This document shows positions 43,198-55,865 of a DNA stretch of 64,000 nt, in pieces; positions within the stretch are counted from its first letter, which is position 1; the number at the start of each line of letters is the position of its first letter. Both the position numbers and the translations under genes were made by a program. Under the pieces are notes generated by a model. It did no database searches. It had not been told where the DNA came from and was given only the letters and a program-made list of their open reading frames with translations. This DNA is from Parvularcula lutaonensis (lineage in GTDB: Bacteria; Pseudomonadota; Alphaproteobacteria; Caulobacterales; Parvularculaceae). The DNA lies in NCBI RefSeq assembly GCF_014651915.1, contig NZ_BMXU01000001.1, forward strand, positions 1,309,501 through 1,373,500, read 5' to 3'.

Positions 43198-45036
43198 TCA
43201 CGACTGTGACTTACAAATCACAGCCGAAAGCGCCGGAACGGTGACGCGATAACTCGCCTGAGCCTGCGCCAGATTTCCGCAGGATCCTAAAAGGCTAGAC
43301 CATTCACTGCTTTCGGGCTGAACGCGGATCTGTTCGGTGCGGTCTTCCGTGCCTGCATTGATGACGGTGAGGATTTCCGAGCCATCCTTACCGAGGCGTG
43401 AAAATGCGAAGAGACCGCCATTAACTTCTTCGAATCGCGTGACCTGCCTGCCGTGCCGGAGAGCTTCGTTGTTCTTGCGAATGTCCACGAGGTCCCGGAT
43501 GAAAAGGTAAAGCGGGTGCCCAGTGTCGAAATTGTCCTCCGCCGTGGTGGCATCGGTGCCCAGGAGATCGTTGTCGTTGTAGATCGCGACCTGGCTTTCG
43601 AACATGTCCTCGCGTGCGCCCTGGTCGCCCTCGTCGCTGACGAAGCCCTGCTCCGAGCCTGAATAGAGCGTCGGCACACCGCGAGCGGTCATCAGCAGGA
43701 CATGCGCCACCTTGAGGCGGGCCAGCATCTCCTCCTCCGATGCGTCCGGGTTGGCTTCTCGAATGAACTGGCTGAACCGGCCCATATCGTGGTTGCCGAG
43801 GAAGGTCGGCAGCCTGCGCGCCGCGGCGCGGCCGCCCCGGTAAAGCGTATCGGCTTCGAACAGGCGGGCAAGGCGGCGGGTGCCCTCGCCTTCCGCCACC
43901 ACGTCACGGACGGCGTCCTGAAAGGCGAAATCGAGGGTCGCCGGGAAGCGATCGTCCCAGGTGTGCCGGGCAAGGGCTGCCGGGTCGGGGTCGAAGACCT
44001 CGCCGAAGATGTAGAAGTTTTCCTTGCCGATGCCCTCTGCCTTCTCGAGCATGGCGGGGACGAAAGCCCGCCAGAAGCTCGGCTGGATATGCCGCGCAGT
44101 GTCGATGCGGAAGCCATCGATCCCGAAATCTTCGATCCACGAGCCGAAGATCTCGATCATCCCGTTGATGACCACCGGGTCCTCCGTCATCAGATCATCG
44201 AGGCCGAAGAAATCGCCAAACAGGAAGGTCTCGCCCGGATCGGTGAAATTACCGCGATTGTGGTAGTGGATGGGGTCGTTGAGCCAAGCCGGGTTCTTCA
44301 CGTTCGCCTCGGCCTCGGGAACGAACGGCGTGTAGGCCCAGTCCGCGCGCTCCAGCCGGGCGAAATTCTCCTCGGTCTGAATATCGAGCCCCATGAAGCC
44401 TTCATTGATGGTCTCGCCGGTGGCCGGGCCCCGAGTGGTCATGGGGTAATCCGCAAGGTTGCGATAAGGGCAGAAACCCTCGACCGGATCGTCGCCGTCA
44501 TATTCCGGGTCATGGCATTCGCGCATCTGAATGACGTCGGCGGTGTGGTTGGTGATGATGTCGAGGATCACCTTCATGCCGCGCGCATGGGCAGCATCGA
44601 CGAACGCCTCGAGGTCTTCGCGGGTGCCAAGATGCGGATCGACATCGAGAAAATCGGTGATCCAGTAGCCGTGATAGCCTGCGCTCTCGACACCTTCTCC
44701 GCCCTGGACAGGCTTGTTCTTGTAGATCGGGCCGAGCCAGATCGCGTTGACGCCCATGCCTTCGAGATAGTCGAGCCGCGCGGTCAGACCCTTGAGATCG
44801 CCGCCGTGATAGAAGCCCTTGTGGGTCGGATCGAAGCCGTGCTCCAGCCGCCCCCCGTCCATGCCGCCCGTGTCGTTCGACGGGTCACCATTCTCGAAGC
44901 GGTCCGGCAGCATGAAATAGATGACGTCGTCTTCCACGGGCCTGTCGAGGTCCTTCGAGACCTGGGCCGATGCTGCAGCGGTCATTGCGGTGGCGGCGAG
45001 AAGGCTCGCGGCGAAAGCGGCCATATGTCTGGTCAT
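43198..45036 (-). CDS. secreted GH13 alpha-amylase-family hydrolase
   Basis: A 612-residue enzyme with a signal peptide (cleavage near ASAQV, about residue 24-26). The (beta/alpha)8 barrel has DIITNH (159-164), the nucleophile D312 in GFRIDTARH, the acid/base E346 in IFGEVF and D417 in FLGNHDM. A cysteine pair and extra loop with EGFCPYRNLADYP lies in domain B. It should cleave alpha-1,4-glucan outside or in the periplasm. AGGGAG precedes the ATG. It is divergent from GH97 and 116 bases upstream of the receptor. Confidence 0.92.
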   Translation of the reverse strand: MTRHMAAFAASLLAATAMTAAASAQVSKDLDRPVEDDVIYFMLPDRFENGDPSNDTGGMDGGRLEHGFDPTHKGFYHGGDLKGLTARLDYLEGMGVNAIWLGPIYKNKPVQGGEGVESAGYHGYWITDFLDVDPHLGTREDLEAFVDAAHARGMKVILDIITNHTADVIQMRECHDPEYDGDDPVEGFCPYRNLADYPMTTRGPATGETINEGFMGLDIQTEENFARLERADWAYTPFVPEAEANVKNPAWLNDPIHYHNRGNFTDPGETFLFGDFFGLDDLMTEDPVVINGMIEIFGSWIEDFGIDGFRIDTARHIQPSFWRAFVPAMLEKAEGIGKENFYIFGEVFDPDPAALARHTWDDRFPATLDFAFQDAVRDVVAEGEGTRRLARLFEADTLYRGGRAAARRLPTFLGNHDMGRFSQFIREANPDASEEEMLARLKVAHVLLMTARGVPTLYSGSEQGFVSDEGDQGAREDMFESQVAIYNDNDLLGTDATTAEDNFDTGHPLYLFIRDLVDIRKNNEALRHGRQVTRFEEVNGGLFAFSRLGKDGSEILTVINAGTEDRTEQIRVQPESSEWSSLLGSCGNLAQAQASYRVTVPALSAVICKSQS

Positions 45037-45184
45037 TGTTGTGGTACTCCCTAGCGCGGTGGAACTTGCGAGGAGGCGCCGCTTGCGTCAACGAAAGCTG
45101 TCGGTGAGTTAAATGCGTCCCGTGCTGGTGAAATCCAGCGCAGGCCGCTAAGCCACCGGGCGCGCAGCTAGGGAGGGACCAACG

Positions 45185-47287
45185 ATGTTCCGCACTATGA
45201 TGATAACCGCTTCAGCGCTGGGACTGGCGCATGCGGTCGACGAAATTCCACCGATCAGTTTCGATCGCGACGTCAGCTATTCGGTGACCTCGCCGGACGG
45301 CGATATCGAGATCACCGCTTTCACGAACGCCTATGGCGAGCCGATGTACGAAGTCACCTTCGAGGGTGAAGCCGTGATCGAGCCCTCGCGCCTCGGCATG
45401 CGCTTCGCCGATCACCAGCAGTTCAAGGATGGCCTGCTGATCGGCCAGAAGAGCACCAACAGCCATGACGAGACGTGGGAACAGCCTTGGGGCGAGCGGC
45501 GTTTCGTCCGTGACCACCATAACGAAATGGTCGTCACCTTCCGCGACGCCGACGACGAGCGCCGGAGCTTCGATGTACGGTTCCGTGCTTTCGATGACGG
45601 CATCGGATTCCGCTACGAGTTCCCGAAACAGCGCTCCTTACGCGGAGAGCTTGCGATCACCGACGAGCTGACGGAGTTCCGTATCCCGGCCGAAGACACG
45701 ACGGCCTTCCATATCGGGGCGCGGCTGTGGAACCGCTACGAGTATCTCTACGAGACGACGCCGGTGTCAGGGATGCAGATGGTGCATACGCCAGTGACCT
45801 TCGAGCTGGGGTCCGGCGACCATATTGCCATCCACGAAGCGGCACTGGTCGATTATTCCGGCATGTCGCTCCTCCTTAAAAGGGGCAATGTCCTCGAGGC
45901 GGATCTCGCTCCGCGCTCGGACGGGCCGAAGGTGAAGAAGCGGGCGCCGTTCAACACGCCTTGGCGAACCGTTCAGATTGCGGAGGATGCACCCGGTCTC
46001 GTCAACGGCACCGACATCTACCTCAACCTGAACGAGCCGAATGTCCTGGGCGATGTGTCCTGGGTTGCCGAGGATCTCGGCGTCTACACCGGCATCTGGT
46101 GGGACATGCATATCCGCACCAAGACTTGGGGCTCGGGCCCGTTCCATGGCGCGACCACGGAATATACGAAGGAGATGATCGACTTCGCCGCGGAGAACGG
46201 CATGGTCGGTGTCCTCGTCGAAGGATGGAATGAAGGCTGGGACGGCGACTGGTACAATGCCGGCGACGTCATGGACTTCACCAAGCCCTATCCCGACTGG
46301 GACATCAAGGAAGTCACCGACTACGCACTCTCCAAGGGTGTACGGATCATCGGTCACCACGAGACCGTGGGCAATATCGGGCGCTACGAAGACCAGCTTG
46401 AAGAGGCGCTCGACCTCTATCAGGAGCACGGCATCACCCAGGTCAAATCGGGCTATGTCGCCGATGCGGGCAACCTCAAATGGACCGACAGGGACGGCAT
46501 CGAGCATTTCGAGTTCCATGACGGCCAGAGGAACTCGAACCACCACATCAAGGTCCTGAAGGAAGCGGCGGAACGCAAGATTGCCATGAACCCGCACGAG
46601 CCGATCAAGGACACAGGGCTTCGCCGGACCTATCCCAACTGGATCACCCGAGAGGGTGCCCGCGGCATGGAATACTCCGCTTGGGGCGTTCCGCCGAATG
46701 TCCCCGAGCACACGGCAATCCTTCCGTATACGCGCCTGCTGTCGGGTCCGATGGACTACACGCCGGGCATCTTCGACCTGAAGCCGAACATCAATCCGAA
46801 CTACGTGCGGGTATCCCAGAACTCGCCCGAATCGGAAGTCCAGACGACGCTCGCCAAGCAACTTGCGCTTTATGTGGTCATCTACTCACCAATCCAGATG
46901 GCACCTGACCTTCCCCAGAATTACCGCGCACGCCCCGACGAATTCCAATTCATCAAGGATGTGCCGACGAATTGGGAGGAGTCGATCGCCTTGGCAGGCG
47001 AAGTCGGGGATTACATCGTCCAAGCCCGGAAGGACTGGGACAGCGATGACTGGTATATCGGCGCGGTGACGGACGAGAACGAACGGACGGTCGAGATCGA
47101 CCTCTCCTTCCTCGACGACGGAAAAACGTACACGGCGCAAATCTACCGGGACGCCGAGGACGCGCACTGGGACGACAATCCCTATGCCACGGTGATCGAG
47201 GAGCGGGAGGTAACCTCCGAGGACGCGATGAGCCTCTACATGGCACCGGGCGGCGGGGCTGCGATCAGGTTCAAGGCCGAAGGCTGA
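45185..47287 (+). CDS. GH97 alpha-glucosidase, SusB type
   Basis: A 700-residue glycosidase with a short N-terminal signal (cleavage near LAHA). An N-terminal beta-sandwich (about 20-290) precedes the barrel. The three glutamates known from the inverting enzyme SusB are conserved: E393 in HHET, E472 in NPHEP and E496 in RGMEY, so it is predicted to be inverting rather than the retaining galactosidase form. It releases glucose from maltodextrins. The 148-base region shared with GH13 holds both promoters. Confidence 0.92.
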   Translation: MFRTMMITASALGLAHAVDEIPPISFDRDVSYSVTSPDGDIEITAFTNAYGEPMYEVTFEGEAVIEPSRLGMRFADHQQFKDGLLIGQKSTNSHDETWEQPWGERRFVRDHHNEMVVTFRDADDERRSFDVRFRAFDDGIGFRYEFPKQRSLRGELAITDELTEFRIPAEDTTAFHIGARLWNRYEYLYETTPVSGMQMVHTPVTFELGSGDHIAIHEAALVDYSGMSLLLKRGNVLEADLAPRSDGPKVKKRAPFNTPWRTVQIAEDAPGLVNGTDIYLNLNEPNVLGDVSWVAEDLGVYTGIWWDMHIRTKTWGSGPFHGATTEYTKEMIDFAAENGMVGVLVEGWNEGWDGDWYNAGDVMDFTKPYPDWDIKEVTDYALSKGVRIIGHHETVGNIGRYEDQLEEALDLYQEHGITQVKSGYVADAGNLKWTDRDGIEHFEFHDGQRNSNHHIKVLKEAAERKIAMNPHEPIKDTGLRRTYPNWITREGARGMEYSAWGVPPNVPEHTAILPYTRLLSGPMDYTPGIFDLKPNINPNYVRVSQNSPESEVQTTLAKQLALYVVIYSPIQMAPDLPQNYRARPDEFQFIKDVPTNWEESIALAGEVGDYIVQARKDWDSDDWYIGAVTDENERTVEIDLSFLDDGKTYTAQIYRDAEDAHWDDNPYATVIEEREVTSEDAMSLYMAPGGGAAIRFKAEG

Positions 47288-47345: not shown

Positions 47346-47717
47346 TCAGGCAGGCTCGCCGTGGAGCTGCCGGTGCGCGGCGAGGACGACGTCTCTCAGC
47401 TCTTTCTCTTCATACGGCTTGCGCAGGATCTCGCATTCAAAGCCTTCGAAAAGCTGGGGATCAAAGCTGTACCCGGTGGCGAAGATCACCTTCGCCCCCT
47501 TTGCGATCATCCGCTCCGCCACGCCGAACGAGGTGACGCCCGCGACGTTCACATCGAGGACGCCGATATTGAAGTCGCGCTTGTCGAGTTCGGCGTTCGC
47601 CTCTTCAATATCCGTCGCATGATGTACCTCACCGATCGAGAGCCGCTCCAGCGAGTCGACGAATGTCAGCGCAAGGATGATCTCATCCTCTAGAAAAAGG
47701 ATCCGGGACGCGCCCAT
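47346..47717 (-). CDS. single-domain response regulator
   Basis: A 123-residue receiver with no output domain. It starts MGASRILFLEDE; D55 in GVLDVNV is the likely phosphorylation site and KPY the conserved lysine. The start ATG at 47717 aligns with the domain; an ATG at 47744 is possible. Both lie inside the end of the kinase gene, so the two are translationally linked and the kinase is its probable partner. Members of this group (HWE-linked receivers) act as phosphate carriers or sinks. Confidence 0.85.
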   Translation of the reverse strand: MGASRILFLEDEIILALTFVDSLERLSIGEVHHATDIEEANAELDKRDFNIGVLDVNVAGVTSFGVAERMIAKGAKVIFATGYSFDPQLFEGFECEILRKPYEEKELRDVVLAAHRQLHGEPA

Positions 47718-50700
47718 TGGCTGACAGCTCGGCTTCGGATTCATGATACAGCTTTTCAGTCGGGATACGCAGGATGCACTCCAAGCCTTGATCGGTGAAG
47801 CGCCGATCGATCTCACCACCCAATGTCTTCTGTACGCTGATGTTGATGAGTGAAGTTCCGAACCCGCGTCTCTCGGGTTCTCCTGCCTTAGGCCCGCCTG
47901 ATTCCCTCCACTCTAGCTGCAGGGTTGCGCCCTGCCCGCGGTCGAATACCCACCAGGAGATATCCAACCGTCCCTCATCGGTGCTCAATGCACCGTATTT
48001 CAGTGCATTCGTTGCCAGCTCGTGCAATGCCATCGCAATGGCAAGAGTGGCACGAGAGCCCAGCTCGACATGCGGACCGGACAGGCTGACCCTGTCTGCA
48101 CCATAGACGTCAACGAGCTCCGCTTCGAGCACAGCCGACAGCGGCGTGGATTTCCAGTCACGTGAGGTCAAGATATCGTGTGTTTTCGCCAATGACTTGA
48201 TGCGCGCCGACAAGATCGCGAGCTTCTCGTCGGGAGCCGCGTCAGAACGGACGGACTGATTCACCAAAGCCTGGACGTTGGCGAGGATGTTCTTCACCCG
48301 GTGCTGCAGCTCGCGCATGACGCGACGCAGCACGGTTTCCATCTCCCGCTGGTCTGTGATGTCGCGAACGCAAAGGCCGACGGAGACGACATTCCCGTCT
48401 TCCTTCACCGGGTACCAGTCAACCTCGAAGATGCGGTCCTCATCGGGGAACGCCTTGGTCCGGCCCGCGACCTCCGCGCCGAGGATCGGCTCGCCGGTTT
48501 CGATGACCCTGTCGATTGGCTCAGCGATGAAGGAAGCGATTCCCGGCACAATGTCGTCCGGCGTCCTGCCGAGATGGTCATCGACGGAAACGCCGTCGAT
48601 CTCGGCAAGCCGCTCATTGGCCCTGATATAGCGCTTGTCGAGATCGAGAAGCGCCATGGCCTGCGGTGCCGCGCGGTAGATCTCGCGGATTTCGTCGAGC
48701 TGCCGCTTGTAGTCAGCCTGGGCCTGCTCGAGCCTTCTGGTCACGCGGTTGATCTCGGAAATATCCGTCAGTGTCAGGACGAATCCGTTCCTGTCGCCGG
48801 ATGGCAGGATGTAGGGGAGTACCCGGACGAGATAGGCGGCATCGCCCTCGAGATTCGTGAACTCTCGCTCTTCAGCGATGCCGCTGGCTTCGACCTTCGC
48901 GAGCATATCGTCGATCATGTCGACAGGAAGCGACGACCGGATCGAATCGAGACCGCGCCCGATATCCTGCGGCAACAGCTTGAAGACCTGCGTGGCGGCA
49001 GGAGTGAACTCGCGCACCCGACGGTCGGCATCAAGGAAGATGATACCGATGTCGGTGCTCTCAAGGTAATTGGCCTTGTCGGCGTTCGCCTTGGCGAGCT
49101 CGTTGACCTTGTCCTGGAGTTCGTCATTGACCGTGGTGAGTTCTTCGTTCGCGGACTGAAGTTCCTCATTCATCGACATCATCTCTTCGTTGGAGCTCTT
49201 GAGCTCCTCGTTCGATGTCTCGAGTTCCTCGACGGTCGTGCGCAGGTCCTGCTCGGTCTGGGATAGCTCCTGCTCAAGGGCATGGATGTGATGATCGAAG
49301 ACGGCGACGTCGTCGACGAGATCGGCTGCGTCATCCCGCTCCTGCTCACGGGTCTTGTATTCAAGAAAGACAAGCAAAACCGCGTCCTTGTCCAGACGTT
49401 CGGCGACCACGTCGATCATGCGGTCGTCGTCGCCGGAATCCTGCTCGATAGTCACGCCGCGGATCTTCTTCCGGCTGGTCCCGGTATTGGCGAGCTCTTC
49501 AAGGAGCGCCGTCACCACGACCCGAAGGCCGCGCCGCGCGAGCTTTGTCACGTTGAGATCTGGGTTCCCCACGGGAAACTCCAGAAAGCGGCTCGTGTCC
49601 CTTGACGCCTTCAGGATCTCACCGCGGTTATCGACCACCACGAAGGGTGCCGAATAGCGAGTCAGGATGATGTCGCGAAGGAAGTCCTCGTCTACCTGCT
49701 CGGCTTTCGGGCTGGATGTGCGCTCCGCGATCACGGCCGCCCCGGCATAGGCCTTCCCCAGGGAGGGAAGCTGCACCCGCGGGGTCTGAACGTTCGAACG
49801 CTGATAGACTTTGTATTCGGTAGAGACGGCTTTGAACAGGCGTTTGTCCGAGGAGACATTCTCGGACGGCCCGAGAAGCAAAAATCCATCCTTCCGCAAG
49901 GAATAATGGAAAAGGGGCACGAGCCTTCGCTGCAGCGCGTTTTCAAAATAGATCAGGAGATTGCGGCAACTGATGAGGTCGAGCTTCGAGAACGGCGGAT
50001 CCTTGATGACGTTGTGCGCAGAAACCCGCACCACGTCGCGCAGGATCCGGGTCACCCGATAGCCCTGGTCCTCACGCACGAAGTATCGGTCAACCAGCTC
50101 CGGCGGGACCTCGGCTAGGGCGGACTGTTGATAGACCCCCTCACGCGAGAAGCGGGTCATCATCGGGTCGATGTCAGAGGCGAAGACCTCGACGGTGACG
50201 CCGATGTTGCGTTTGCGTTGCTCTTCGAGGAGCAGGATGGCGATGGAATACGCCTCTTCGCCGCTCGAGCATCCGGGCACCCAGACCCGGATGCGTTCGC
50301 CTGGAGACTTTCGGTCGAAGATCTTCGGAATGATCTCCGTCCGGAGATACTGAAAAACCTCCGGGTCCCGGAAGAAGGCGGTGACGTTGATGAGGATGTC
50401 GCTGAAGAGCTGCTCGGCCTCTTGCGGATCGGCGGCGAGCCGCGCGGCATACTCCTTGTCGCTGCTGATGTTCAGGATCTGCATCCGCCTTGCGAGGCGC
50501 CGGAGGAGCGAGGCTTTCTTGTATTGCGAAAAATCATGTCCGACCTGGCGACGGATCGCGTCGACAGCGGTTTCAAGCAGGGTCTTCGGGTCGGAAAGCT
50601 CTGTTGGCTCGGGGATCGAACCATTCGCGAAATAGCTCGCTACAGTCCGCGGTATGTCTTCGGGCGACAGCACGAGGTCCACAAGGCCGGTGGTCATCGC

Positions 50701-51249
50701 GCTTGACGGCATGCCGGCGTATCGCGCGCCCGAGGGATCCTGCGCAACGGTCAGACCCCCGGCCGCCTTGATCGCGCGAAGCCCTTCGGAGCCGTCCGCC
50801 CCGGTGCCGGACAGCACGATGCACGCGGCGTTGGCGCCCTGCTGGTCAGCCAGGCTCTTGAAAAACTTGTCGATCGGCCTGCGGCGGCCGCGCGGCTCGG
50901 AGAACTCCGCCAGCTTGAGCTCGCGGCCCTCGATCGTCAGCTCGGCATTGGGCGGGATCAGGTAGACAACGTTCGGCTCCACCTGCTCCCCACCTTCGAT
51001 CGTCGCCACGTCGAGGTCGGTCTTGCGGCGCAGGAGCTCGGCCAGAAGGCTTTCGTGGTGAGGGTCAAGATGCTGGACCACGACATAGGAGAGGCCGTCC
51101 TCGCGCGATGCGCCACTGAGGAGCCGCTCATAGGCTTCGAGACCGCCGGCCGATGCGCCGACGCCAACGATCGGCGACCGCCCCTCGACACGTTGTCGTG
51201 ATGGGGCGGGGCCACCGATTTTTCCCTGTGCTAATTCGCGCGAAGACAT
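47683..51249 (-). CDS. CheB-CheR-PAS-HWE histidine kinase fusion
   Basis: An 1188-residue signalling protein from ATG 51249 with AGAAGGG upstream. A CheB methylesterase domain (about 27-200; catalytic S33, H60 and D152) is followed by a CheR methyltransferase domain (about 225-480), a long coiled-coil with repeated SNEEL units (near 680-760), two PAS domains, and an HWE kinase core with phosphoacceptor H983 in LQHRVKN, HELATNALKYGAL and the WRE signature. It lacks a transmembrane segment. Such fusions are known in alphaproteobacteria but their inputs are mostly unidentified. The LOV gene is divergent and 65 bases away. Confidence 0.9.
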   Translation of the reverse strand: MSSRELAQGKIGGPAPSRQRVEGRSPIVGVGASAGGLEAYERLLSGASREDGLSYVVVQHLDPHHESLLAELLRRKTDLDVATIEGGEQVEPNVVYLIPPNAELTIEGRELKLAEFSEPRGRRRPIDKFFKSLADQQGANAACIVLSGTGADGSEGLRAIKAAGGLTVAQDPSGARYAGMPSSAMTTGLVDLVLSPEDIPRTVASYFANGSIPEPTELSDPKTLLETAVDAIRRQVGHDFSQYKKASLLRRLARRMQILNISSDKEYAARLAADPQEAEQLFSDILINVTAFFRDPEVFQYLRTEIIPKIFDRKSPGERIRVWVPGCSSGEEAYSIAILLLEEQRKRNIGVTVEVFASDIDPMMTRFSREGVYQQSALAEVPPELVDRYFVREDQGYRVTRILRDVVRVSAHNVIKDPPFSKLDLISCRNLLIYFENALQRRLVPLFHYSLRKDGFLLLGPSENVSSDKRLFKAVSTEYKVYQRSNVQTPRVQLPSLGKAYAGAAVIAERTSSPKAEQVDEDFLRDIILTRYSAPFVVVDNRGEILKASRDTSRFLEFPVGNPDLNVTKLARRGLRVVVTALLEELANTGTSRKKIRGVTIEQDSGDDDRMIDVVAERLDKDAVLLVFLEYKTREQERDDAADLVDDVAVFDHHIHALEQELSQTEQDLRTTVEELETSNEELKSSNEEMMSMNEELQSANEELTTVNDELQDKVNELAKANADKANYLESTDIGIIFLDADRRVREFTPAATQVFKLLPQDIGRGLDSIRSSLPVDMIDDMLAKVEASGIAEEREFTNLEGDAAYLVRVLPYILPSGDRNGFVLTLTDISEINRVTRRLEQAQADYKRQLDEIREIYRAAPQAMALLDLDKRYIRANERLAEIDGVSVDDHLGRTPDDIVPGIASFIAEPIDRVIETGEPILGAEVAGRTKAFPDEDRIFEVDWYPVKEDGNVVSVGLCVRDITDQREMETVLRRVMRELQHRVKNILANVQALVNQSVRSDAAPDEKLAILSARIKSLAKTHDILTSRDWKSTPLSAVLEAELVDVYGADRVSLSGPHVELGSRATLAIAMALHELATNALKYGALSTDEGRLDISWWVFDRGQGATLQLEWRESGGPKAGEPERRGFGTSLINISVQKTLGGEIDRRFTDQGLECILRIPTEKLYHESEAELSANGRVPDPFSRG

Positions 51250-51314
51250 TGCGCCCTTCTTTGAGTGTTCGCCTGTCTTCCAGTGGTCGCAGGCGGTTTG
51301 CAAGATCGGAAAGC

Positions 51315-51866
51315 ATGGCGGAAACCGCTGAATTTCAGAGACTTCGGGCGGCGTTCAGCAGCTATGCCATCTCCATCTCTATTGCCGATCTCGATCGGGA
51401 AGACGAGCCTATAATCTACGCCAATGAGGGGTTCGTCGCCCTGACGGGCTATGCTGTCGAAGAAGTCATCGGCCGCAACTGCCGGTTCCTGCAGCGCGGC
51501 GAGCAGGATCCCGAAGCGCGCGCACGCCTGCGAGCCATGCTGGACAACCCCGACATCCTGACCGCCCGCGCGGTGATGCAGAACGCGCGGAAGGACGGAA
51601 CACCGTTCGAGAACTACGTTTTCATGCACCAGCTGCCGACCCGCAACGGACGCAACCTCGCCTTCGCCTCGCAGTTCGACGTGACCCGGGCCCTCGCCTC
51701 GCTTTCCCATGACAAGATCGCGCTGTCCTACCCGCGCGAACTCGCCGGACCCCTCGCGAACTACCGGGGGCTGCGCAAAAGTGCCGCGGAGACCAAGCTG
51801 CGCTCGGTCCAACTGGCAGCGGAAACCCTGAGGACGATCACCAACGCGCGGCTGCGGCACCTCTAG
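51315..51866 (+). CDS. short LOV-domain blue-light photoreceptor
   Basis: A 183-residue protein. A full LOV domain lies at about 15-125: ANEGFVALTGY, then GRNCRFLQ with the adduct cysteine C56, followed by NARKDGTPFEN and FASQFDVT, where the flavin-contact residues (Asn, Asn, Gln) are kept. The rest is a helical tail with no kinase, HTH or other output domain. It should bind FMN and form a cysteinyl adduct in blue light. The gene is divergent from the HWE kinase gene, which has no LOV domain itself. Confidence 0.87.
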   Translation: MAETAEFQRLRAAFSSYAISISIADLDREDEPIIYANEGFVALTGYAVEEVIGRNCRFLQRGEQDPEARARLRAMLDNPDILTARAVMQNARKDGTPFENYVFMHQLPTRNGRNLAFASQFDVTRALASLSHDKIALSYPRELAGPLANYRGLRKSAAETKLRSVQLAAETLRTITNARLRHL

Positions 51867-53106: not shown

Positions 53107-54207
53107 ATGTTCGAACAGCAGCAGTTACGCGCCCTCATAGACACGGCTGTCGACGGCATCCTGTCGATCTCCGCCGACGGCCGCGTGCGGCTTTACAACC
53201 GCGCTTCGGAACGGATCTTCGGCTATTCCGCCGAGGAGGTCCTCGGGCAGGATGTCGCCATGTTGATGCCGGAGCATCACGCGCGCAACCACGGCCAGTA
53301 TATCGAGAACTACCTGTCGACAGGCGAAGCCAGGATCATCGGCATCGGGCGCCAGGTGCAGGGGGTGAAGAAGGACGGCTCGGTTTTTCCGCTGCACCTT
53401 TCGGTGGGCGAGTTCAGGGAAGCTGGGGAGCGCTATTTCGTCGGCATCATCCACGACCTCAGCGAGCAGATGGCCGAGCGCGAACGGACGCGAGCCCTTC
53501 AGGAACAGATCGAGCTGATCGGCAGGCACTCCGCTGTCAGCGAGATGGGCGCCGCACTTGCCCATGAGCTGAACCAGCCGCTGACCGCCGTCGATCTTTT
53601 CCTCGTCGCAGCCGAAAGGAAGCTCGAGAACGATCCTGACGGTGCACGGAGGATCTTTGCGCGGGTCAGGGAGGAGGCCGAGCGCGCCGGAAATATTGTC
53701 CGCCGAATCCGGCAAATGGTCGAACGCTCCGACGGCGAACACAGCCTTTTCGACCTCGGGCAAGTCATCGACAGCGCTGTCGAGCTGTGCCGGACGGTCA
53801 GCCAACGGCCGGACACCATCCGCATCGAGACAACCGGCCCGGCCATGCTGTTCGGCGACAGCACGCAGATCAGGATGATCCTCGTCAACCTCATCAAGAA
53901 CGCACTCGATGCGGTCGGTGACCAGCCCCGCGGTCAGGTCGTCGTCAGGGTGCGGAGCGGTGACCCTCTCCGGATCGAGGTCCTCGACAACGGCCCCGGT
54001 GTCGGGCCTGAATTCGAGGACAAGCTGTTCCAGCCCTTCGCGAGCACCAAGACAAAAGGGTTGGGCATCGGGCTGTCGATCTGCCGGACAATTGCCGAAG
54101 CTCATGGCGGCAGGCTTCTCTATAAGGCTCCGGACGGGTATCGGGACGGCCTTGGCGGCGCTTCGTTCATCCTGGAGTTGCCCCAGCCGGACGAAAGGAA
54201 CCTATGA
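53107..54207 (+). CDS. fixL: heme-PAS oxygen sensor kinase FixL
   Basis: A 366-residue soluble kinase. The PAS domain ends GIGR and matches FixL: H62 aligns with the heme-ligating histidine of Bradyrhizobium FixL and R82 with the arginine that reads oxygen. The transmitter has H153 in LAHELNQP, NLIKNAL and TKGLGIGLSICR. There is no membrane segment. It should be active at low oxygen and phosphorylate FixJ. Its stop overlaps the fixJ start (ATGA). Confidence 0.87.
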   Translation: MFEQQQLRALIDTAVDGILSISADGRVRLYNRASERIFGYSAEEVLGQDVAMLMPEHHARNHGQYIENYLSTGEARIIGIGRQVQGVKKDGSVFPLHLSVGEFREAGERYFVGIIHDLSEQMAERERTRALQEQIELIGRHSAVSEMGAALAHELNQPLTAVDLFLVAAERKLENDPDGARRIFARVREEAERAGNIVRRIRQMVERSDGEHSLFDLGQVIDSAVELCRTVSQRPDTIRIETTGPAMLFGDSTQIRMILVNLIKNALDAVGDQPRGQVVVRVRSGDPLRIEVLDNGPGVGPEFEDKLFQPFASTKTKGLGIGLSICRTIAEAHGGRLLYKAPDGYRDGLGGASFILELPQPDERNL

Positions 54208-54794
54208 GCGCCCCTGAAAAAATCGCGATTGTCGACGATGACGACAGCCTCCGGGAGGCGGCGCTTCTCGTCCTCGATCGGACGGGACGGGAGATTTCCG
54301 GCTTCGAGAGCGGCGAGGCCTTCCTTGCAACGGGGAGCGAGAGCGACTGGGATGTCGTTTTCCTCGATCTCAAGATGCCGGGACCGTCAGGCTTTGACGT
54401 GCTGCGTGACCTCTCCCGCCGCGGCAAGCCGGACTATCCGGTGGTGATGATCAGCGCCCATGGCGACGTGAAGGCCGCGGTGCAGGCGATGCGCCTCGGT
54501 GCCGTGAGCTTCATCGAGAAGCCGTTCTCCGCAGAAGAGCTGGAGGCGGCGATCACCGAGGCGCGGGAGACCTCCGAGCTCGGATCGGCAGCGCGACAGG
54601 AAGCGCTATCCCGCCTCACGCCGCGCGAAAAGGAGGTTGCTGAGCTTCTCAACGAAGGGCTCAGCAACAAGGAAGTTGCGCTGGAACTCGACTGCAGCCC
54701 ACGGACGGTCGAGATCCACCGTTCGCGGGTCCTCGACAAGCTGGGCGTGCGCAATGTAGCGGGATTGGTCAGGCTTCTCTCGTCACTCGGTTGA
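54204..54794 (+). CDS. fixJ: FixJ-type response regulator
   Basis: A 196-residue regulator. The receiver has DDDD near 11-14, D55 in VVFLDLKMP, the SAHGDV switch and K in IEKPFS; a LuxR-type HTH follows (LTPREKEV to VEIHRSRVLDKLGVRN). These features match FixJ, which is phosphorylated by FixL and activates fixK. Co-translated with fixL. A receiver gene follows 51 bases later. Confidence 0.9.
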   Translation: MSAPEKIAIVDDDDSLREAALLVLDRTGREISGFESGEAFLATGSESDWDVVFLDLKMPGPSGFDVLRDLSRRGKPDYPVVMISAHGDVKAAVQAMRLGAVSFIEKPFSAEELEAAITEARETSELGSAARQEALSRLTPREKEVAELLNEGLSNKEVALELDCSPRTVEIHRSRVLDKLGVRNVAGLVRLLSSLG

Positions 54795-54845
54795 GCTTTG
54801 CGGCAACGCAACGTTCTCTCCCGCAATCGGGCCTAGTTCCGCGCC

Positions 54846-55217
54846 ATGCCAAGCGATGCGCCATGCCCTTCCCGCGTGTTCATCATCGAGGATGACCCGG
54901 CGGTGCGGGACGCCCTTTCCCTCCTCATTGAGGGGCAGGGCGTCGAGGTGGTCTCCTTTGCCGACGGCCAGCACTTCCTGGACAGCGCTTCGCCGAAGCC
55001 AGGAGACGTGGTCCTGCTCGACCTGCTCTTGCCTAAGGTGGACGGATACCAGGTCGCCGCTGCGCTGCGAGAGCGTTCGGTCGATTGCCGACTGATCCTC
55101 ATCTCCGCAGAACGGGCTTCCGCCTTCGATGCGGCAGTGCAGGCAATCAAGCCGGAGGCCGCCTTCCGAAAGCCGCTGACGACGACGCAGCTGCTTGAAG
55201 CGATCGGGACACTGTAA
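54846..55217 (+). CDS. stand-alone receiver protein between fixJ and fixK-like gene
   Basis: A 123-residue receiver with IIEDDPAV, D59 in VLLDLLLP and FRKPL as the lysine motif, but no output domain. It is not FixT-like. Position between fixJ and the FixK-like gene suggests that it feeds into FixL/FixJ signalling as a sink, brake or adaptor. This role is inferred. Confidence 0.75.
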   Translation: MPSDAPCPSRVFIIEDDPAVRDALSLLIEGQGVEVVSFADGQHFLDSASPKPGDVVLLDLLLPKVDGYQVAAALRERSVDCRLILISAERASAFDAAVQAIKPEAAFRKPLTTTQLLEAIGTL

Positions 55218-55231
55218 GGGATTGCCCTTAC
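55214..55231. promoter_or_regulatory. 7-bp inverted repeat before fixK-like gene
   Basis: GTAAGGG-ATTG-CCCTTAC is perfect. It overlaps the stop codon of the receiver gene and lies 68 bases before the fixK-like ATG. It may be an operator. A second palindrome, GCGG-ATT-CCGC, is nearby at 55240-55250. Confidence 0.45.
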
Positions 55232-55298
55232 GCGGCGTTGCGGATTCCGCGCGCTTTTCGTTTCGGCCACCTTCTCGAAACAAGAGGAGGAGGACGAC

Positions 55299-55865
55299 AT
55301 GGCGCAATCGCTGATCAAGACCTACCCGAAGAAGGCCACGCTGTTTGCGGCAGGAGATGCGGCCGGAGCGCTGCCGAAGCTGCTTTCCGGCGCCGTCATT
55401 CTTTACACGATCCTCCCCGATGGGCGGCGTCAGGTCCTCGATCTCGCAGGGCCGGGCGACTTCCTCCATTTTGAAACCGAGGGCGAGATCGACCACTTCG
55501 CCGAAGCCCTGACCGAGTGCCAGGTGGCAAGTTTCCAGGCATCGGAACTCCTCGCCTCGAAAGACACGGCTGCCTTCCTGATCGAGCAAATGCGGGAGCG
55601 CCTCGCCATGGAGCGCCGGCACATCACCATGCTCTCGCGCAAAAGCGCTTCGGAGCGGCTGATGGACTTCGTCCTTCTGGCCGCTGACTGCCTGGGCGAG
55701 GACGAGGGTCGCTTCGACCTGCCACTGACCCGGCAGCAGATTGCAGACTTCACCGGACTGACCCTCGAAACCGTGAGCCGCACCTTTGCCAAGTGGCAAC
55801 GCGACAACACGCTGACCCGGCTTGCCGGCCAGACCTACCAGATGAGCGGCGCACTCGCAGCCTAG
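55299..55865 (+). CDS. FixK-like Crp/Fnr regulator
   Basis: A 188-residue cyclic-nucleotide-fold regulator without the N-terminal cysteines of Fnr, so it cannot hold an Fe-S cluster and fits FixK. The effector domain is short. The helix-turn-helix LTRQQIADFTGLTLETVSRTF has the E-x-x-S-R recognition pattern of proteins that read TTGAT-type half-sites. Preceded by GAGGAGGAGG. It is the likely target of FixJ and activator of ccoN. Confidence 0.85.
   Translation: MAQSLIKTYPKKATLFAAGDAAGALPKLLSGAVILYTILPDGRRQVLDLAGPGDFLHFETEGEIDHFAEALTECQVASFQASELLASKDTAAFLIEQMRERLAMERRHITMLSRKSASERLMDFVLLAADCLGEDEGRFDLPLTRQQIADFTGLTLETVSRTFAKWQRDNTLTRLAGQTYQMSGALAA

Follow-up and report, generated by a model that had tools for sequence, protein, structure and literature searches.

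A free short LOV protein encoded beside a CheB-CheR-HWE histidine kinase and a single-domain receiver in two alphaproteobacterial families

Results and Discussion

In the window analyzed here (the whole 64,000-nucleotide stretch of DNA from a marine, Parvularcula-like host), three neighboring genes, all of them intact, encode a free blue-light sensor of the LOV type, a large kinase of the two-component type and a small receiver. Adjacency is conserved in either of two orientations, the association is specific from the LOV side as well as from the kinase side, the trees of LOV and kinase match, and the cassette appears to have been transferred as a unit; together these findings strongly support a functional link of the free LOV protein with the kinase and the receiver. 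These observations lead us to propose that the trio is probably a blue-light-gated two-component system in which the photoreceptor is a separate subunit, the LOV protein acting in trans to control the kinase and the kinase signaling through the receiver.

Components of the locus

The LOV gene lies in an open reading frame at 51153–51866 on the forward strand, and its likely start at ATG 51315 gives a protein of 183 amino acids (51315–51866). Pfam reports a PAS domain alone (PAS_9, E = 2.6e-14). The LOV core spans residues ~12–125 and includes the adduct cysteine Cys56, and a helical extension follows at ~141–182; in the structure model (pLDDT 79) the C-terminal 42 residues form one helix, in agreement with the initial annotation, which described a LOV protein lacking an output domain and keeping C56 and the flavin contacts. 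The latter are indeed present as N55-C56-R57-F58-L59-Q60 together with N90, N100 and Q120, and N55, C56, R57, L59, Q60, N90, N100 and Q120 are invariant in the alignment of 19 trios. The best solved relatives are the structures of RsLOV (PDB 4hia, 4hj3, 4hj4 and 4hj6; 1.3e-24), which likewise consists of a LOV core and a helical extension with no effector. The model and RsLOV match over ~180 columns with an rmsd of 12–13 Å and a TM score of ~0.6, where the core agrees and the orientation of the C-terminal helix differs, and RsLOV is one among many LOV structures matched. In its adduct cysteine, flavin-contacting Asn and Gln residues, helical extension and lack of a fused effector, the protein resembles the short LOV proteins of the RsLOV type.

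The kinase gene (47683–51249, reverse strand) encodes, counted from an ATG, 1188 amino acids in the order CheB, CheR, coiled coil, PAS_10, PAS_4 and HWE histidine kinase. The Pfam matches (CheB, CheR_N, CheR, PAS_10, PAS_4 and HWE_HK, the last at 1e-21) bear out its earlier description as a 1188-residue kinase with an HWE core and PAS domains and no LOV domain. The HWE signature comprises the phospho-acceptor H983, N1081 and W1114/E1116 and is invariant in all 19 LOV-linked homologues; the CheB triad S33/H60/D152 and the SAM-binding motif of CheR (G326/G330/D359) are also present. Across the 19 trios the flavin, CheB, CheR and HWE residues are invariant, except for CheR position 331 (E or Q) and one S328A substitution. 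Because nearly all key residues are invariant, all parts of the trio appear to be active. A low-confidence model of the kinase (pTM 0.31), used for secondary structure only, contains a third, cryptic PAS-like strand pattern at ~534–631 and a helix of ~98 residues at 634–731. Service of the CheB and CheR domains in MCP adaptation was ruled out as a general rule, since two genomes that carry the trio (G604 and G646) have no MCP domain at E ≤ 1e-10. The window genome has eight HWE_HK matches and also encodes a separate single-chain LOV-LOV-HWE kinase.

In the trio, LOV and HWE core are not joined in one chain; they are encoded by two divergently transcribed genes, whose start codons are separated by a 65-bp intergenic region (51250–51314) that we presume to be a shared promoter region. 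The corresponding gaps in divergent relatives are estimated at 52–198 bp (8 measured), and no EcfG-like promoter was seen in the divergent intergenic regions of the 8 loci examined. The receiver gene (47346–47714, reverse strand) overlaps the 3' end of the kinase gene by 32 bp, as the initial annotation had noted. That annotation placed all three genes correctly apart from the start of the receiver, which is nearer 47714 than 47819; from the nearest ATG the protein has ~122 amino acids. Its Pfam score of 27.5 bits is just under the cut-off of 30.2 bits. Its closest solved structures are Sma0114 (2lpm, 8e-10) and SdrG (5ieb, 8e-7), and it carries the motifs VIFATGY and VLDVN. The motif, the phospho-acceptor Asp and the similarity to Sma0114 and SdrG identify it as a single-domain receiver of the FATGUY type.

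Adjoining the trio in the window are an alpha-amylase family gene and a GH97 glycoside hydrolase gene, divergently placed (43198–47287) and absent from the related loci looked at. Further along, at 53107–55865 on the forward strand and 3' of a hydroxyphenylpyruvate dioxygenase gene, successive genes encode, by Pfam, a PAS-histidine kinase, a receiver-LuxR regulator, another receiver and a regulator of the Crp type; this group resembles a FixLJ-type cluster.

Recurrence of the trio in related genomes

A lack of conserved co-location in relatives, which the initial annotation had named as an observation that would speak against a common module, is contradicted by our survey: the trio recurs in about 19 genomes belonging to two families. 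The survey comprised a LOV-only search and a kinase-only search, run separately and then compared. Among 328 genomes of a Rhodobacteraceae-type family, 14 of the 17 standalone LOV genes found at E ≤ 1e-35 directly adjoin a full-length CheB-CheR-coiled coil-HWE kinase, and none of the 6 LOV genes that are part of longer proteins of the LOV-kinase type lies beside such a kinase. Conversely, 16 of the 19 kinase matches above 1,100 bits in the same genomes have a LOV neighbor, compared with 0 of 11 more distant CheB-CheR matches examined. By our own estimate, which assumes ~4,000 genes per genome and few such kinases, the probability that chance would place a LOV gene next to such a kinase is far below 1% for each gene. 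Within the 62 genomes of the family to which the window belongs, the LOV-kinase pair was found in G000, G009 and G049, the kinase of G049 being cut by a contig end; G009 is a Parvularcula (taken as Parvularcula mediterranea) and thus of the same genus as the window. Two further cases came from scanning genomes of named organisms: in Tranquillimonas rosea and Pseudooceanicola onchidii the LOV gene, the CheB-CheR-HWE kinase gene and the receiver gene follow each other in this order on a single strand. A class-wide sample of 385 genomes yielded only one further close full-length kinase, which has no LOV gene, and the trio therefore seems, at the sensitivity of this search, to be restricted to two families.

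Twelve of the 19 trios are divergent and seven are tandem, the latter arranged as an operon in the order LOV, kinase, receiver. In one tandem trio (G759) the start of the kinase gene overlaps the stop of the LOV gene by 4 bp, an arrangement compatible with translational coupling. The receiver lies at the 3' end of the kinase gene in 18 of the 19 trios and is inverted in two, and the receivers of the tandem clade, where readable, have FHSGH in place of FATGY. Related kinases with no LOV gene occur in G028, G784, G631, G682 and G295.

A natural fusion was found in the planctomycete Candidatus Laterigemmans (L113, 3768–8471, forward strand), where a single chain of 1567 amino acids runs CheB-CheR-coiled coil-PAS-LOV-PAS-histidine kinase-receiver (the kinase and receiver parts were read by eye). 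An apparent LOV fusion of 1341 amino acids in G588 was rejected, the long frame being antisense to the kinase. A third LOV/CheB-CheR pairing is present in G003, a genome of the same genus as the window (L052, 574–5631): the gene for a 326-residue LOV protein, whose C-terminus resembles a degenerate kinase (Pfam reports PAS only), diverges from that for a CheB-CheR-multi-PAS-HWE kinase belonging to a different clade, and a receiver gene lies downstream.

Co-inheritance of the LOV and kinase genes

In the kinase tree the divergent trios and the tandem trios form separate, fully supported groups, and each group has LOV-free kinases as its neighbors. The LOV tree repeats this split (81/94) and several of the inner pairs. 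Distances among the LOV proteins are strongly correlated with those among the kinases (19 pairs; Mantel r = 0.83, P ~5e-5), and the correlation holds within the divergent group (0.80) and the tandem group (0.95); these are distances uncorrected for the species tree, so part of the match reflects common descent. In both trees the pair of G009 groups with Rhodobacteraceae pairs (G548/G722), which suggests that LOV and kinase genes have been transferred jointly between the families. A long branch leads to the window LOV and makes its exact place in the LOV tree unsure. Its closest LOV relative and one of the closest relatives of the window kinase are both found in G049.

Relation to characterized light sensors

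Few photoreceptors have been studied as thoroughly as the short LOV proteins, and RsLOV serves as a component in optogenetics. Genome G549, which we take to be probably Rhodobacter sphaeroides 2.4.1, encodes a short LOV protein ~80% identical (by eye) to the crystallized RsLOV, and its gene is divergent from that of a CheB-CheR-PAS-HWE kinase at a distance of 71 bp; a FATGY receiver is also present. The window LOV is ~27% identical to this protein. A 2022 paper states that binding partners of RsLOV and DsLOV had yet to be identified (PMC9758184), and in the literature we searched, subscription papers aside, there is no link of short LOV proteins to CheB-CheR-HWE kinases. Nor does that literature describe a partner kinase for RsLOV. 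The conserved and co-inherited kinase and receiver genes beside an RsLOV orthologue provide concrete partner candidates for short LOV proteins of the RsLOV type.

The trio shares a LOV input, an HWE/HisKA2 core and a single-domain receiver with the LOV-HWE kinases EL346, Brucella LOV-HK and the LovK-LovR system of Caulobacter, and the window LOV and kinase between them account for both parts of a family model of such single-chain kinases; unlike them, it has LOV and kinase on separate chains, and the kinase adds CheB, CheR and further PAS domains. PmSB-LOV of Pseudomonas mendocina is a short LOV protein that acts on the product of a neighboring gene, PmlR2 (PMC9758184). It resembles the proposed system in acting in trans on a neighbor's product, whereas its effector is a MerR-type DNA-binding repressor and no kinase is involved.

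Proposed mechanism and alternatives

In the mechanism that we consider probable, the short LOV protein would bind flavin and form the Cys56 adduct under blue light, and its terminal helices would bind the neighboring CheB-CheR-PAS-HWE kinase and change its activity. Most simply, the LOV subunit would dock on the PAS/coiled-coil region and switch the HWE kinase, which would then phosphorylate the FATGUY-type receiver of the same locus and perhaps PhyR as well, so that light or flavin redox state would tune a stress-type response. Flavin photochemistry and kinase-to-receiver transfer are predicted from the families to which the proteins belong; direct LOV-kinase binding, the sign of the light effect, the final output and the targets of CheB and CheR we only infer. 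Several considerations count against this explanation. Gene neighborhood does not equal binding, and homologous kinases also occur with no adjacent LOV gene. The long branch of the window LOV and the share of common descent in the matching distances likewise weigh against it. The short LOV proteins of R. sphaeroides and D. shibae affect photosynthesis genes (PMC4844311; PMC4335406), and these effects could involve another partner, for example AppA/PpsR. If confirmed, the mechanism would add an architecture in which LOV acts on a kinase in trans, whose separable parts would be of use in constructing light switches, and would give CheB-CheR fusion kinases a defined signal.

One alternative, which we consider unlikely, is that the trio forms a single regulatory unit in which LOV protein and kinase do not touch; the target of the former would be the receiver or some further protein, for instance a transcription factor, and the locus would reflect co-expression. 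The short divergent intergenic regions would permit such co-regulation, and short LOV proteins can act on other proteins, as in the case of PmlR2; similarly, the LOV-pseudokinase LdaP acts on PpsR (PMC10890935). The strong agreement between LOV and kinase trees, the tandem and 4-bp-overlapping gene orders, and the planctomycete chain that has LOV inside a CheB-CheR kinase all favor a direct link to the kinase instead. Within the preferred reading of a LOV subunit that controls the kinase directly, a further and quite unlikely scenario is that the coiled coil of the kinase or the LOV helix is reversibly methylated through the CheB and CheR domains, providing light adaptation without a chemoreceptor, and that the kinase is the missing partner of RsLOV-type proteins. 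A detachable LOV subunit would in that case gate a single-chain "chemotaxis-like" kinase.

The initial annotation also suggested that input and output may have been separated. "Split" is an apt description of the architecture. As an account of its origin, fission of a single-chain LOV-HWE kinase with fusion of the HWE half to CheB-CheR appears distinctly improbable. In its favor, the window LOV and kinase align to complementary stretches of the NCBIfam LOV-HWE model NF010077 (46–163 and 157–361), as does the R. sphaeroides-type pair (49–178 and 155–361), and in G003 a LOV protein with a kinase-like tail is found beside a CheB-CheR kinase. However, a match to the kinase half of the model may be no more than what any HWE core gives, the nearest kinases have no LOV, and the HWE cores of LOV-linked kinases, that of the window among them, are not placed with LOV-HWE cores in a FastTree phylogeny, which is rough and has few LOV-HWE rows, the H-box pattern having missed most LOV-HWE sequences. 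Recruitment of a free LOV protein, perhaps twice, is likelier than fission and fits better because the kinase or the kinase-receiver pair exists without LOV (G028, G295) and LOV-bearing kinases form two distinct clades. Finally, it is extremely improbable that an unlinked LOV gene lies by accident next to an unrelated kinase, a notion to which the related kinases without LOV lend some support but which the survey contradicts with ~19 genomes, two families, two gene orders and matching trees.

Possible connection to the stress response

Phosphate from HWE/HisKA2 kinases reaches the FATGUY receivers MrrA and SdrG, which in turn signal into the general stress response (PMC5964349). Like Sma0114, SdrG and MrrA, among which are its closest solved sequences, the window receiver combines a FATGY motif with a location beside an HWE kinase; unlike them, it is dedicated by gene order to one CheB-CheR kinase. 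PhyR-like proteins were found in 19 of 20 genomes checked. The related LOV-free kinase of G028 adjoins a PhyR-like gene, whose product is 43% identical to the PhyR of the window genome, and the latter is encoded away from the trio, near another HWE kinase. A stress-response output of the trio is plausible as a candidate function, but the location of the trio away from the PhyR gene and the lack of an EcfG-like promoter in the eight intergenic regions examined do not favor it.

Other contexts of standalone LOV genes

The remaining three of the 17 standalone LOV genes share a second conserved context, with two dynamin-like GTPases (L220, 6851–10700, reverse strand; L223, 3014–7338, forward strand; L227, 1176–5442, forward strand). 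These loci are marked by Dynamin_N matches, the second GTPase of L227 being left unresolved by Pfam, and the LOV genes of L223 and L227 are directly preceded by a gene for a small roadblock-like protein (recognized by eye, no Pfam match). It is possible that they represent a light-linked dynamin system. In a 1.8-Mb alphaproteobacterial genome (G128; L233, 1–7084), a standalone LOV gene lies ~4–6 kb from CheR-like and CheB-like genes.
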